A stretch of 64,000 nt of DNA from Nitrospirota bacterium (GTDB taxonomy: Bacteria; Nitrospirota; Nitrospiria; 2-01-FULL-66-17). The notes below the pieces were generated by a model. It was given only the letters and a program-made list of their open reading frames with translations, was not told the origin of the DNA and did not search any database. Numbering within the stretch: the first letter of the stretch is position 1; every line of letters begins with the position of its first letter. The DNA lies in assembly GCA_040757335.1 (NCBI GenBank), contig JBFLXB010000001.1, forward strand, positions 124,001-188,000, in the 5' to 3' direction. Positions 35,657 through 53,502 of the stretch are shown in pieces. A program made the position numbers and the translations under genes.

Positions 35657-36358
35657 CTACAGGTGCGAGATCTCGTCTTTCTCGGGCTTGCTGTCCTCGG
35701 CAAATTGCCGCTCGAGAAAACGCCTGGCCACGTCGCGCCCGCCGATGCCGAATGCAATGGCCAGACCGAGCATCACGGCCCCGAAGGCGATGGAAAACGC
35801 AATCAAGACGACGGTCTTGGCCAGCGCAACCTGTTCGAGGGCCATCGCGACCGTCAGAATCACGAGGAACACACGGACCGTGTTGCTCAGCAACCGGGCC
35901 GACGGCACGTTGGCGTTGACCATTCCCAACAGCACGGCCCGCGCCGCGAAGTTGGCGAAGAGGATGCCGATAAAGAGGATGATCAGCGCAATAAAAATTT
36001 GGGGGACGTACAAAAAGAACCGGGAGATTTGTTCCTGAAGCACGATGATCCCGAGCGTGCTGATCCCCAACATCAGGAATCCCGCCAAAGTGACCCAGAA
36101 CACCAGGCTGCTCAGGAGTTCGGTCGGCGGGGGCAGATCCGCTTTGGTGAACATCTGGGTCGCCCCGACGTTGTCGCAGAGCACGTCGAACTTCACCAAT
36201 TTGAGGAAGTGACGGACAAGAATCTTGACGACGATCGCGATCACCCAGCCGACGGCGATGATGATCAACATCCCGAGGATCTTGGGAAAAAGATCCAGCG
36301 CCATCTTCATCGCGGTGTCCAGCGTCTGCGCGACGCCATGCAGGAGGGTCTCGGTCAT
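35657..36358 (-). CDS. Conserved TM-helix (channel-like) membrane protein
   Basis: About 233 residues with five to six hydrophobic segments: LFPKILGMLIIIAVGWVIAIVVKIL, LLSSLVFWVTLAGFLMLGI, YVPQIFIALIILFIGILFANF, LLSNTVRVFLVILTVAMALEQV and IAFSIAFGAVMLGLAIAFGIGG. The last ends in GIGGRDVARRFLE, as in the conserved TM-helix repeat family related to the pore region of MscS-like channels. It lacks the MscS cytoplasmic domain. A role in osmotic or cell-envelope stress is plausible from its neighbours. Start ATG 36358 lies seven bases after the glycosyltransferase stop, with GAGGCACCC before it. Confidence 0.8.
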   Translation of the reverse strand: MTETLLHGVAQTLDTAMKMALDLFPKILGMLIIIAVGWVIAIVVKILVRHFLKLVKFDVLCDNVGATQMFTKADLPPPTELLSSLVFWVTLAGFLMLGISTLGIIVLQEQISRFFLYVPQIFIALIILFIGILFANFAARAVLLGMVNANVPSARLLSNTVRVFLVILTVAMALEQVALAKTVVLIAFSIAFGAVMLGLAIAFGIGGRDVARRFLERQFAEDSKPEKDEISHL

Positions 36359-36365
36359 GGGTGCC

Positions 36366-37637
36366 TCACTTGGTTGGAGTCCAGCGCTCGACGAGATACG
36401 GCTTGAACCGTTCGTATTCCAGGCAGAGCGCCTCGACCCGCTGTTTGAAGTCGAGCGAGTCGGTTTCGAGATGCTCCGCCACAAAGCAACTCGTTCGCCC
36501 CAAGTACAGCGGAACGAGGGCCTGCAGCAGGTGATCGCGATGGATCACCGCGTGATGGTAGGACGCGGCGAACTCGTAGACCGTCTTGACCCAGAGATCA
36601 TCGGGATATCTCATCTCCGCATCACCGACCTCGGCGAGACGTTGGATCGCCTGAAGAGTTTCGGGGGAAAGAATCGGACCGAGGATCGATGCGAACTCGC
36701 GGACCCCGGTTCGAAAGACCTGCAGCATGCGCTCGCGATTGATCCGGACAGGTTCCAGGCTCAATTCGTATTCGAATCCGAAGATCGGTGTGGGTTCAGA
36801 TCCGCTTCGGGAAAGCCAGAAGGACTGATCGGTCTCCATACACTCGAACAGAGCGCCGACCACCCGTTGCAACACGGTCGTCAGGTCCGGTTCCTCGTAG
36901 TTAGGCGCGTGAAGCTTGGGCCCAAGGAACGCCTGGCAGAGGAGGTAGCCATCTCTGATCGCCGACGTGGTCAGTCGGAGATCGACGCCGGGGCGAAACG
37001 GCTGCCCGGCCTGGAGACTCGTTCCGAGAAAGGCCTTGGCGAGGCGCGCGGACACGCCGAACTCTTTTCCCAACGGTTCTTTGACCCGAGCTCCGTACAC
37101 CGCCCGAACCACGGGATACATCACGTTGGTGATCAAGAGCCCGTCAAACTTGTGGCGATGGTAAATCGGCGCGACGAAATCGAACTGCTCCTTGTAGACC
37201 GGACGAATCAATCCCTCGATCCACTCCGGCGTCACGCTCTGGAGTTCCGCGCTCACCACCGCGCACGCCTTGGCCCGGAGGAGATCCGCGGCCGCGAAAA
37301 TGGTGCGCAGCGCGTGCTCACGCCCCGGACCGCCGCTGGACGGCGTGGTGATCCGGTGGAGCGTTCGCAACGGCTGGGACGTCATCAGCGTCCGAAAATC
37401 GCTGATGGTGGCGTCGCGGACCACGTCGAGCGTCCCGTCGGTCGAGCCGCCGTCCGGATTGATCAGCACGGTCCGCGCGCGCGGAAAGTACTTCAGGAAC
37501 CCGACCTGCACGGCGCGAACCACCTGCCCCGCGGTCTTGACGTTGTTGAACGTGGGCACGCCGACCAGGATGTCGACTTCGCCAACCGCAATCAGTTGGC
37601 TCAGCAAGTCGTCCGATAGTACGGTTTCGTCCGCCAA
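36366..37637 (-). CDS. GT-A family glycosyltransferase, possibly glucosyl/mannosylglycerate synthase-like
   Basis: A 423-residue cytoplasmic protein. The Rossmann-like nucleotide-sugar site is visible: DILVGVPTFNNVKTAG near residue 22, then VLINPDGGSTDGT. Later segments include CAVVSAELQSVTPEWIEGLI and DFVAPIYHRHKFDGLLI. The layout resembles glycerate glycosyltransferases of the GT78/GT81 type, which make the compatible solutes mannosylglycerate or glucosylglycerate, but I could not match donor or acceptor residues. Start is TTG 37637. It sits directly behind treS and before a channel-like protein. Specificity is inference; an alternative is a general sugar or lipid glycosyltransferase. Confidence 0.65.
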   Translation of the reverse strand: MADETVLSDDLLSQLIAVGEVDILVGVPTFNNVKTAGQVVRAVQVGFLKYFPRARTVLINPDGGSTDGTLDVVRDATISDFRTLMTSQPLRTLHRITTPSSGGPGREHALRTIFAAADLLRAKACAVVSAELQSVTPEWIEGLIRPVYKEQFDFVAPIYHRHKFDGLLITNVMYPVVRAVYGARVKEPLGKEFGVSARLAKAFLGTSLQAGQPFRPGVDLRLTTSAIRDGYLLCQAFLGPKLHAPNYEEPDLTTVLQRVVGALFECMETDQSFWLSRSGSEPTPIFGFEYELSLEPVRINRERMLQVFRTGVREFASILGPILSPETLQAIQRLAEVGDAEMRYPDDLWVKTVYEFAASYHHAVIHRDHLLQALVPLYLGRTSCFVAEHLETDSLDFKQRVEALCLEYERFKPYLVERWTPTK

Positions 37638-45573: not shown

Positions 45574-47727
45574 TTACGGCGTTGCGGACGTTGGGGACGC
45601 CTCATTCAGCAATCGGTTGATGCCTTCCGCCCACCCGGAGGGTCCCGCGCCCGGCAGGTGGGTCAACCGTTCGAGCCGCAAGAGGCCTTTGCCCGGCGGG
45701 CCGTCGGATCGAGCCACCAGAAACGGTCGGTCCACGGCTTTCAGCATGGCGATGTCCGTCGAGGTGCTGCCGAACGCGGCCGTCCGGAAGCCGGAACCGC
45801 ACTGTTTCCGGAACAGCTCAATCAGGGCCCGGCAGGCGCGTCCCTTGTCAGTCCCGCCGGTCAAATGGAGAAACCGCACTCCGGCAACGACGGTCAGCCC
45901 GAGTTCCGCGGCGGCGTCGCGGATCTGCCCCAGGGTCTCGGGAGTCACCGGGACGCCCCCGTTTAACACGAACGGCTCGTCGTACTCGCGCTGCCGCGCC
46001 CGCTCGGCGCCGGGCTGTTCGAGTCCGGTGTGACGCACGATCTCCTCGATCGTCATATCGCCGAACCCGGTCAGCTTCAGATCGACCGCGCTCTCGATGG
46101 TTCGGAGCGCCTCGCGCAGGCGCGTATAGGGAACGCCATATTCGAGGACGTCGTAGCCGTTCCGTTTCGCCGGCGGAGCGGGCAGCGCCGGGAAATAGCC
46201 TTCCGGGATGTAGACCGCGCCCCCGCTTTCGACGATGAACGGATCTCGGTTGCCGATTTCGCGCCGGAGGTACTCGATTTCGGCACGCGTTTTCCCGGAA
46301 CAAATCACCAGGGGCACGCCTTCCTTCTGCAGGCGGTCCAGAGCCGGCCTGGATTCATCGAAGCGAAACGTCGTGGGATCGAGCAGGGCGCCGTCCAATT
46401 CCGTGAACACCGCCCAGCGCGGGGCTTGCGGGGGGGCGGGCGACTGCGCGGCGTCCTCGAACGACGGAGGGGCCGGTGCCTCGGCCCGCGCCGTGTCACG
46501 GCGCTGCTGCAGATACAGCGAAACCGTCATATGGAGGATCGAGAACCCGATCATCAAGAGGGCGTAGAGCGGAAAGGCCTCGGTGTTGGGGACCCCCTGC
46601 GCGGCGGGGACAAACGCCATGACCGCTGCGGACAACCCGCGCGGCAGCATGGCCACGATGGTTCGGCGATCGCGTGGGCTCCAGCTTCGTTTGAGCAGAC
46701 TCATACCGGCGGTGAGCCCCCACCGACAGCCCAGCACCGCCAGGAACAAGAGAAGGCTTCCGGCGGCGACCAACGGGGTCAGGCTGGCGAGGTTGAAAAT
46801 CAGGCCGAGCAGGACGTAGAAGAACGTCCGGACCAGGAACGAAAGCTCTTCGTTCAGTCTCCGGAGAAAGACGTCGATCGCGAAATTCGCGACCTCCAGA
46901 TTCCAGCCGATAATCCGTCGGACGTGCGCGTGCGCTCGGGCGACGACTTCCTCCATGTTGCCGAGCACCAGGCCGAAGAACAGGATCGTGATCGCGCCGT
47001 TCGCTCCCAACGCCTCGGCGGCGGAGTACAGGAGTAACACGGCGGCCAACGTGAGCATGTACGACAGCGGCTGGCCCTGGAGCATGCCCATGAATCGTGC
47101 CCACAACATCCCGGCGACAAGGGCGAGCAGCAACGCGTCCACGAACGCGTGGAGGATCAAGGGGACTATCGCGGTCTCCAGGGACGTGGGACTGACCAGC
47201 AAGTTGACGAAGATGAGCGCGGCGACGACCACGAACACGTCGGTAAAGGCCGATTCCAGACTCAACAAGATGCGCGTTTCGTCCGAAATCGATTTCATCT
47301 GCGTCACCACCGGAATCACCACCGCGCCGGTGGTTCCGCCGAGGATGACCCCGAGGAGGAAAGCGACCGTCCAGTCGCCCCCGAACACGCTCTGGTAGAC
47401 GACGGCGACGGCCGCGGCGCTGGCGCAGAACACGAGCGTGGTGTAGAGCAACGCGAACGGCGCTTCTCGAACCACCTTCAGGATCTTGAGATTCAGCCCG
47501 CCGTCGAACAGGATGATCAACAGGGCCAGGGTCCCGAAGAACGGCGCCGCGGCGGTCATCGACTCGGAGCTGACCACGCCCAATACCGGCCCGAGCAAAA
47601 CGCCCAACCCGATGAGGATGATGGCGTTGGGCACGCCGGTCTTCTTGAAGATCCACTCGCCGGCGAGCCCGACGAGAATGATCATGCCGACGAGACCCAA
47701 GACCGCAGGGACACCCAACTCAGCCAC
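45574..47727 (-). CDS. Cation/proton antiporter fused to a degenerate mannosyl-3-phosphoglycerate phosphatase domain
   Basis: A 717-residue two-part protein. Residues ~1-405 form a CPA-type antiporter with about 12 helices, including LLIILFDGGLNLKIL, GGTTGAVVIPVVTQM and the ion-site region LSLESAFTDVFVVVAAL. A proline-rich linker (APAPPSFEDAAQSPAPPQAP) follows. Residues ~440-717 match the HAD-IIB mannosyl-3-phosphoglycerate phosphatase family: VICSGKTRAEIEYLRREIG, PFIVESGGAVYIPEGYF, YDEPFVLNGG, GGTDKGRA and MLKAVDRPFLV. Motif I reads FTELDGALL, with Glu for the nucleophilic Asp, and motif IV reads FGSTSTD where the family has GDSxND. It is therefore probably a non-catalytic ligand-binding module controlling transport. 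GTG start. Assignment of both halves is solid; the sensor role is inference. Confidence 0.85.
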   Translation of the reverse strand: MAELGVPAVLGLVGMIILVGLAGEWIFKKTGVPNAIILIGLGVLLGPVLGVVSSESMTAAAPFFGTLALLIILFDGGLNLKILKVVREAPFALLYTTLVFCASAAAVAVVYQSVFGGDWTVAFLLGVILGGTTGAVVIPVVTQMKSISDETRILLSLESAFTDVFVVVAALIFVNLLVSPTSLETAIVPLILHAFVDALLLALVAGMLWARFMGMLQGQPLSYMLTLAAVLLLYSAAEALGANGAITILFFGLVLGNMEEVVARAHAHVRRIIGWNLEVANFAIDVFLRRLNEELSFLVRTFFYVLLGLIFNLASLTPLVAAGSLLLFLAVLGCRWGLTAGMSLLKRSWSPRDRRTIVAMLPRGLSAAVMAFVPAAQGVPNTEAFPLYALLMIGFSILHMTVSLYLQQRRDTARAEAPAPPSFEDAAQSPAPPQAPRWAVFTELDGALLDPTTFRFDESRPALDRLQKEGVPLVICSGKTRAEIEYLRREIGNRDPFIVESGGAVYIPEGYFPALPAPPAKRNGYDVLEYGVPYTRLREALRTIESAVDLKLTGFGDMTIEEIVRHTGLEQPGAERARQREYDEPFVLNGGVPVTPETLGQIRDAAAELGLTVVAGVRFLHLTGGTDKGRACRALIELFRKQCGSGFRTAAFGSTSTDIAMLKAVDRPFLVARSDGPPGKGLLRLERLTHLPGAGPSGWAEGINRLLNEASPTSATP

Positions 47728-51674: not shown

Positions 51675-51909
51675 GCGCGTCGGTCGAGCCGAACGTGCGG
51701 CGTGCTCCGCTCGGGGACGCGTGGCGGAGCAGGACGCCAAAGTGCGGCTGGCGGGCCGTCTCGCGTAACTGTTCCGCGACGCGAGGCCGCCGGGCGCCTC
51801 GTCCGTCGCCCTTTCCGCCGCTCCCGGGCGTCATTCGACCGCCCCCCCTTTGACTCTCACTTCCCATTTCGGGATGATACGTCGTGATGACGGTAAAGGA
51901 CCCGTCGGC

Positions 51910-53502
51910 ATGAGCGACGCGACCATTCCCGCCAAAGCCGTGATCGATCTCCGGCGATTCGATGCACTGCTGGTGGATCTCGACGGAGTGGTCACCAAGA
52001 CCGCGGCGGTGCACGCGGCGGCGTGGAAGCAACTGTTTGACGAGTATCTTCGGCGGCGCGCCGAATCCGGGACCGAGGTGTTTGTGCCGTTCGACATCGA
52101 GGCCGACTACCGGCGGCTGGTGGATGGGAAGCCTCGCGCCGATGGCGTCCGGAGTTTTCTGGCCTCGCGCGCCATCAGTGTTCCCGACGGCTCGCCGGAC
52201 GATGGGCCGGACGCCGAGACCGTGCACGGCCTCGGGAACCGAAAGAACCTCTACTTTCAGGAACGTCTCCAGCGCGAGGGCGTCGAGGTCTATGAGCCCG
52301 CGGTGGCGATGTTGCGCAACGCGTGCGAGCGGGGGTGTCGACTCGCGGTGGTCTCGTCCAGCCGCAATTGCGAGGCGGTGGTGAAGGCCGCCGGGCTCGA
52401 CGATCTCTTTGATGTTCGAGTCGATGGGGTGGAGATGGCCCGACTCGGAATCAAGGGCAAACCCGCGCCGGCCGTGTTCCTCGAAGCCGCGAAACGGTTG
52501 GGTGTGGGGCCCGAGCGCGCGGTGGTGATCGAGGATGCGGTGGCGGGCGTTCAGGCCGGGCGTAAGGGACGGTTCGGACTGGTGGTGGGCGTTGATCGCG
52601 GCGGGCAGGCCGAGGCGCTCAGACAACACGGTGCGGACGTGGTCGTCTCGGATCTGGGTCAGATCGTCTTTAAGGGGGAGCGGGTGACGACGCGAGCAGG
52701 CAGCGACACGATTCCGTCCGCGCTGGACCGCCTGGCTGATCTGGCGCGGCGGAGCGAGGGCAAGCGAATCGCGGTATTTCTCGACTACGACGGGACGTTG
52801 ACGCCGATCGTCGCGCGTCCCGATCTGGCCGTGCTGTCCGACGCGATGCGGGCCACGGTCGCCGATCTGGCTGCGCGCTGTCCGGTGGCCGTCATCAGCG
52901 GACGCGATCGGGCCAATGTTGCCGAACTTGTCAGGTTGGAATCCGTCTATTACGCCGGCAGCCACGGGTTCGATATTTCGGGTCCGGATGGCTGCCGCAT
53001 GCAGCATGAAGGGGGCGTGGCCGCGGCGCCCGCGCTTCGAGCGGCCGAGGAACAGCTCCGCAGCCAGCTCGCCGGCGTGGACGGCGCGGCGGTCGAAGGC
53101 AAGGCGTTCGCCATCGCCGTGCACTATCGCCTGGTGGACGGGCGCCAGGTGCCGCTCGTGGCCGAAGTGGTCAACAGCGTGGCGGCCGGATATCCCGGGC
53201 TTCGCGTCACGGGCGGGAAGAAGATCTTCGAGTTGCGGCCGCGTCTCAAGTGGGACAAGGGCCGGGCCGTCCTGTGGCTCCTCCGGGCATTGAAGCTGGA
53301 TCTTGCCGACGTGGTTCCGATCTACATCGGCGACGACGAGACCGATGAAGACGCGTTCGAGGCGCTGGCGGAGTGCGGCATCGGGATCCTGGTCCGCGAC
53401 GGGCCGCGCGAGACCACGGCCCGGTACGCGCTGGATGATCCGGAGGACGTCCGGCGGTTCTTGGAGGGGCTGCGCTCGGTGATCGAGCGGAGGGGCCGGT
53501 GA
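51910..53502 (+). CDS. otsB: Beta-phosphoglucomutase-like / trehalose-6-phosphate phosphatase fusion (OtsB1 type)
   Basis: About 530 residues with two HAD domains. The N-terminal one (residues ~15-245) is beta-phosphoglucomutase-like: LLVDLDGVVTKTAAVHAAAW, VVSSSRNCEAV and VVIEDAVAGVQAG. The C-terminal one (~290-525) is a trehalose-6-phosphate phosphatase: VFLDYDGTLTPIV, VAVISGRDRANV, GSHGFDI and IYIGDDETDEDAFEAL. Both sets of catalytic Asp are intact. The order matches the first two-thirds of mycobacterial OtsB1 (Rv2006), whose last third, GH65, is here the next gene and overlaps by four bases. No trehalose-6-phosphate synthase (OtsA) is in the window. ATG 51910 is chosen over 51850 by fold boundary. 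Confidence 0.9.
   Translation: MSDATIPAKAVIDLRRFDALLVDLDGVVTKTAAVHAAAWKQLFDEYLRRRAESGTEVFVPFDIEADYRRLVDGKPRADGVRSFLASRAISVPDGSPDDGPDAETVHGLGNRKNLYFQERLQREGVEVYEPAVAMLRNACERGCRLAVVSSSRNCEAVVKAAGLDDLFDVRVDGVEMARLGIKGKPAPAVFLEAAKRLGVGPERAVVIEDAVAGVQAGRKGRFGLVVGVDRGGQAEALRQHGADVVVSDLGQIVFKGERVTTRAGSDTIPSALDRLADLARRSEGKRIAVFLDYDGTLTPIVARPDLAVLSDAMRATVADLAARCPVAVISGRDRANVAELVRLESVYYAGSHGFDISGPDGCRMQHEGGVAAAPALRAAEEQLRSQLAGVDGAAVEGKAFAIAVHYRLVDGRQVPLVAEVVNSVAAGYPGLRVTGGKKIFELRPRLKWDKGRAVLWLLRALKLDLADVVPIYIGDDETDEDAFEALAECGIGILVRDGPRETTARYALDDPEDVRRFLEGLRSVIERRGR

Follow-up and report, generated by a model that had tools for sequence, protein, structure and literature searches.

The locus analyzed here raises the question of how a cation/proton antiporter came to carry a phosphatase domain of the MPGP/GpgP family, and of what this domain may be doing there. 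We analyzed a window of 64,000 nucleotides (the whole stretch of DNA under study) from a Nitrospirota bacterium whose genome is a draft of 61 contigs, 99% complete, and is the one genome from which the fusion is known.

Architecture of the fusion gene

The two domains are encoded by a single frame of 717 codons without internal stop. The gene, its domains and the catalytic motifs discussed below are located as follows in the window (residues refer to the 717-aa protein):

45574..47727 (-): fusion gene, cation/proton antiporter plus MPGP/GpgP-type HAD domain (717 aa; open reading frame and domain searches)
46537..47679 (-): antiporter domain, residues 17-397 (Pfam Na_H_Exchanger; 3/72 conserved columns changed)
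46417..46536 (-): antiporter end and Ala/Pro-rich linker, residues 398-437 (comparison with the tails of standalone relatives)
45607..46410 (-): MPGP/GpgP-family HAD domain, a putative pseudophosphatase, residues 440-707 (family score and structure matches)
46399..46401 (-): motif I nucleophile position, D443E, codon GAA (alignment and codons)
46297..46299 (-): motif II Ser477, retained (alignment)
45844..45846 (-): motif III Lys628 of DKG, retained (alignment)
45754..45774 (-): motif IV FGSTSTD, residues 652-658, with D654S and N657T and with D658 retained (alignment and codons)

Family models match both halves of the protein, in agreement with the antiporter-HAD fusion proposed in the initial annotation. 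Pfam Na_H_Exchanger matches residues 17-397 (E = 5.5e-27) and TIGR01486, the MPGP family model, covers residues 440-707 with a score of 211.2 bits (curated cut-off: 164.75). The closest solved relatives of the HAD domain by sequence are the MpgP enzymes of Thermus and Pyrococcus. Its AlphaFold model has a mean pLDDT of 84 and the top Foldseek matches of this model in the PDB are structures of Thermus MpgP (3zty/3ztw; E about 1e-24, best 1.4e-24), which suggests that the fold of the solved MpgP enzymes is present in the domain.

Judged by its conserved residues, the antiporter half is normal. It has the features of CPA cation/proton antiporters (PF00999): the transmembrane domain is present, and so are the residues that standalone relatives within its class conserve, with only 3 of 72 conserved columns changed relative to close relatives. 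It resembles the K+/H+ antiporter models PRK05326 (CvrA/NhaP2 type) weakly. The fusion differs from these antiporters by its C-terminal MPGP-type HAD domain: all 21 antiporter relatives found in 270 genomes of the class are standalone, with frames of at most 481 aa that are too short to include a HAD domain, and their short C-terminal tails stop where the linker of the fusion begins. The window also encodes an NhaA-type Na+/H+ antiporter (PF06965; 29569-30999, + strand).

Catalytic motifs and divergence of the HAD domain

The codons of motif I are GTG-TTC-ACG-GAA-TTG-GAC-GGC, which yields FTELDG with Glu443 (GAA) in place of the nucleophilic Asp of the DxD motif. Those of motif IV are TTC-GGC-AGC-ACC-TCG-ACG-GAC (F652-G653-S654-T655-S656-T657-D658), such that FGSTSTD stands for GDSxND and the GDxxND signature is replaced by GSTSTD. 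Two separate motifs are affected and some of the changes require more than one base, which argues against a sequencing slip. The second Asp of DxD (Asp445), Ser477, Lys628 and Asp658 are all retained; the motif II Ser and the DKG Lys hold phosphate in HAD enzymes. The initial annotation had described Glu at the nucleophile position, Ser for the first Asp of motif IV with the Asn also replaced, and the retention of the Ser and the Lys, and each of these observations is confirmed by codons or alignment. It had also stated that just the catalytic acids were lost. D443E and D654S are indeed present, but the statement was slightly overstated, as seven other conserved columns are changed too (Y454F, A459S, N501S, G549D, Y639F, S655T and P660A).

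We compared the domain to 58 other MPGP homologues, including two crystallised enzymes; 57 of them cover motif IV. The nucleophilic Asp is present in all 58 and is kept by the standalone relatives of the domain. Five of the 57 have another residue in place of the motif IV Asp (Asn in L016, L020, L021 and L005; Ala in L010); all five keep the nucleophile, and three of them come from GpgS-bearing genomes. Replacing the nucleophilic Asp with Glu abolishes turnover in well-studied HAD enzymes such as P-type ATPases. These losses predict that the domain is inactive and that it is a probable pseudophosphatase.

Ten of the 66 conserved columns of the HAD domain are changed, versus 0-7 in other divergent members of the phylum. 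Conserved columns are retained at 23/24 positions of the cap and 42/50 of the core; together with the family score above cut-off and the predicted fold, this upholds the earlier assignment to the MPGP family across both cap and core. Changes affect 2/5 catalytic columns vs 8/61 of the remaining conserved columns (Fisher test, P = 0.16), a catalytic bias that is suggestive but not significant. The domain clusters with its own class in the phylogenetic tree, on a branch of 0.65 relative to sister paths of about 0.45 and 0.58, a similarity in length that argues against runaway decay. GC-content at third positions is high across both domains (0.87 and 0.81), and the value for the HAD domain resembles that of neighboring genes. 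Constraint on the domain thus seems relaxed, yet far from free, and the pattern would fit either a recent relaxation or a continued constraint on the fold and the pocket.

The glucosylglycerate pathway in the genome and its relatives

GpgS makes glucosyl-3-phosphoglycerate, which is then dephosphorylated by a specific phosphatase (PMC2581804). In relatives, GpgP shares a locus with GpgS (NF040724; a search with this family model was positive in 8 of the 12 genomes that it covered), with another glycosyltransferase that is GpgS-like and with an MscS channel, and the antiporter is found 5.2-7.8 kb from GpgP in three genomes (G143, G233 and G163). The phosphatase is present in 189 of 396 genomes of the phylum: 177 possess both GpgP and GpgS, 12 the phosphatase only, 6 GpgS only and 201 neither, indicating that GpgP and GpgS co-occur strongly across the phylum. 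The fusion genome is one of the phosphatase-only genomes, and no match to GpgS was obtained in this draft at E <= 1 with either a protein query or the NF040724 model; GpgS has presumably been lost.

The idea that GpgS loss predicts catalytic loss was rejected as a general rule: among the 11 other GpgS-less genomes with the phosphatase, the nucleophile is kept in 10/10 readable copies and the motif IV Asp in 8/9 copies reaching this motif. One of these genomes (G125, source of L010), from the same class, has Ala for the motif IV Asp and an intact nucleophile.

Over its full length the HAD domain is homologous to characterized MpgP/GpgP enzymes (TIGR01486; PDB 3ZTW and 1WZC), with which it has the fold, the cap, the Ser of motif II and the Lys of DKG in common; the locus of its relatives provides a further link. 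It differs from these enzymes by its attachment to an antiporter, by the replacement of the nucleophile and of the motif IV Asp and Asn, and by the lack of a detected GpgS in the genome. The window likewise resembles the GpgS-GpgP glucosylglycerate loci of Nitrospirota and Gallionellaceae in having a phosphatase, a GpgS-like glycosyltransferase and an MscS channel. It differs from them in that GpgS was not found, that the glycosyltransferase is divergent (SAE) and lies in a GlgE-TreS-maltokinase locus, and that the phosphatase is fused and probably inactive. The two neighboring genes in question are:

36366..37637 (-): GpgS-superfamily glycosyltransferase with SAE for DxD (alignment; member of a divergent clade that also occurs in two genomes of a different family)
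35657..36364 (-): MscS-type channel adjoining the glycosyltransferase, as in relatives (locus comparison)

Of 141 columns that are invariant in 36 relatives, 47 are changed in the glycosyltransferase, those of the DxD motif among them. GpgS binds its metal through the second Asp of this motif (PMC2581804), a position occupied by Glu in the glycosyltransferase of the window. Forty of the 47 columns are also altered in G495 and G496, two genomes of another family (60-62% identity), and the order GlgE-TreS-GT-MscS, with TreS and maltokinase beyond, is common to the window and to both genomes. These shared features suggest that the gene belongs to a maintained divergent clade and is not a fresh wreck. 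The trehalose genes reported as neighbors are present, and the glycerate-glycosyltransferase-like neighbor was correctly recognized as GpgS-like, with the qualification that it is a divergent form with an altered DxD. The window further contains a gene with two HAD domains, one beta-phosphoglucomutase-like and one trehalose-phosphatase domain (51850-53502, + strand), fused in one protein and followed by a GH65 gene.

Origin and role of the fused domain

We favor, with a probability of roughly 0.5, a scenario in which the phosphatase of a glucosylglycerate locus was orphaned by GpgS loss, fused to the neighboring antiporter, lost its catalysis and survives in the cytosol as a domain without catalytic function. 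The phosphatase would formerly have been part of a GpgS/GpgP osmolyte locus and, with GpgS absent, would have been left without a home-made substrate. It would have been joined to the antiporter via the C-terminal tail of the latter, after which the nucleophile and the metal-binding Asp would have been lost. The outcome would be a folded, most likely inactive domain with a largely intact cap pocket. Comparison with relatives points to a likely series of steps: proximity of antiporter and phosphatase, no detectable synthase, fusion and catalytic loss. The domain most likely serves as a structural or assembly tail that is kept because it is attached to a normal antiporter; ligand-dependent control of the antiporter is possible. 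Overall, its features suggest a remnant of an osmolyte pathway that was given up, either put to new use or simply left over, and do not establish it as a sensor. Two observations temper this orphan scenario: GpgS loss alone does not seem to predict catalytic loss, and the conservative changes and the intact cap could equally reflect retention for ligand binding. Even if the domain is a relict, the fusion calls for caution against annotating such a protein as a phosphatase.

Besides a relict domain on a normal antiporter, sensing by the domain is the other live account. As a tentative alternative, the cap pocket of the dead phosphatase may bind glycosyl-(phospho)glycerate, 3-phosphoglycerate or a comparable anion, and this binding may gate the antiporter, which would link cation/proton exchange to the status of organic solutes or of carbon. 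The retention of 23/24 cap columns and of the phosphate-holding Ser and Lys, the predicted intact fold, the normal antiporter, and the nearby osmolyte genes and MscS channel are all consistent with it. The initial annotation had specified sensing of a phosphorylated compatible-solute precursor, and this proposal was not supported and is weakened: GpgS was not found in the genome by two kinds of search, leaving the named ligand without an obvious maker, the nearby glycosyltransferase is divergent with an altered DxD, and no second genome with the fusion was found. A reading in which a sugar-phosphate phosphatase has been converted into a ligand sensor that no longer catalyzes and instead gates an ion antiporter, so that a single polypeptide ties ion flux to the status of organic osmolytes or of 3-phosphoglycerate, is on balance unlikely. 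If the domain does sense a metabolite, it would connect organic to inorganic osmolytes directly at the molecular level and would serve as a model of how abandoned pathways give rise to pseudoenzymes.

It is improbable that the domain is still an enzyme in which Glu443 or another residue supports slow phosphatase activity or a different reaction. Asp445, Ser477, Lys628 and Asp658 are retained, and the position of the first motif IV Asp is perhaps tolerant, as four Asn and one Ala replace it in nucleophile-intact homologues; however, the nucleophile is otherwise invariant, its change to Glu abolishes turnover elsewhere, and a second motif is damaged. An assembly or sequencing artefact fusing two genes is very improbable, since, although the evidence comes from a single draft genome, the join is in frame, has a plausible linker and lies within a contig of 433 kb, several motif changes involve multiple bases and third-position GC-content is high through both domains.

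The fusion appears unique within what was searchable. No second copy was detected by an 8-residue peptide pattern scan of 84,980 genomes, which reaches close relatives only and returned only standalone or otherwise fused phosphatases, by homology in 270-396 genomes of the class or phylum, or among the plasmids searched. Likewise, no antiporter-HAD pseudoenzyme was found in openly accessible literature, and we know of no documented case of an MPGP/GpgP phosphatase turned into a transporter appendage. Among the phosphatase matches listed, only one, in G167, has a frame that could accommodate an antiporter-HAD fusion (732 aa); it was rejected because the upstream part overlies an unrelated gene in another frame. 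Another homologue (G380:C101:8870-9677) gave matches to three disconnected segments only, two of which contain a stop, and represents either a decaying copy or a poor assembly. Finally, a Gallionellaceae locus (L004; 3716-5923, + strand) encodes an MPGP-type phosphatase fused to DUF4147-MOFRL domains, which we take to be glycerate-kinase-like, and this gene adjoins a glycosyltransferase, MscS and GpgS.
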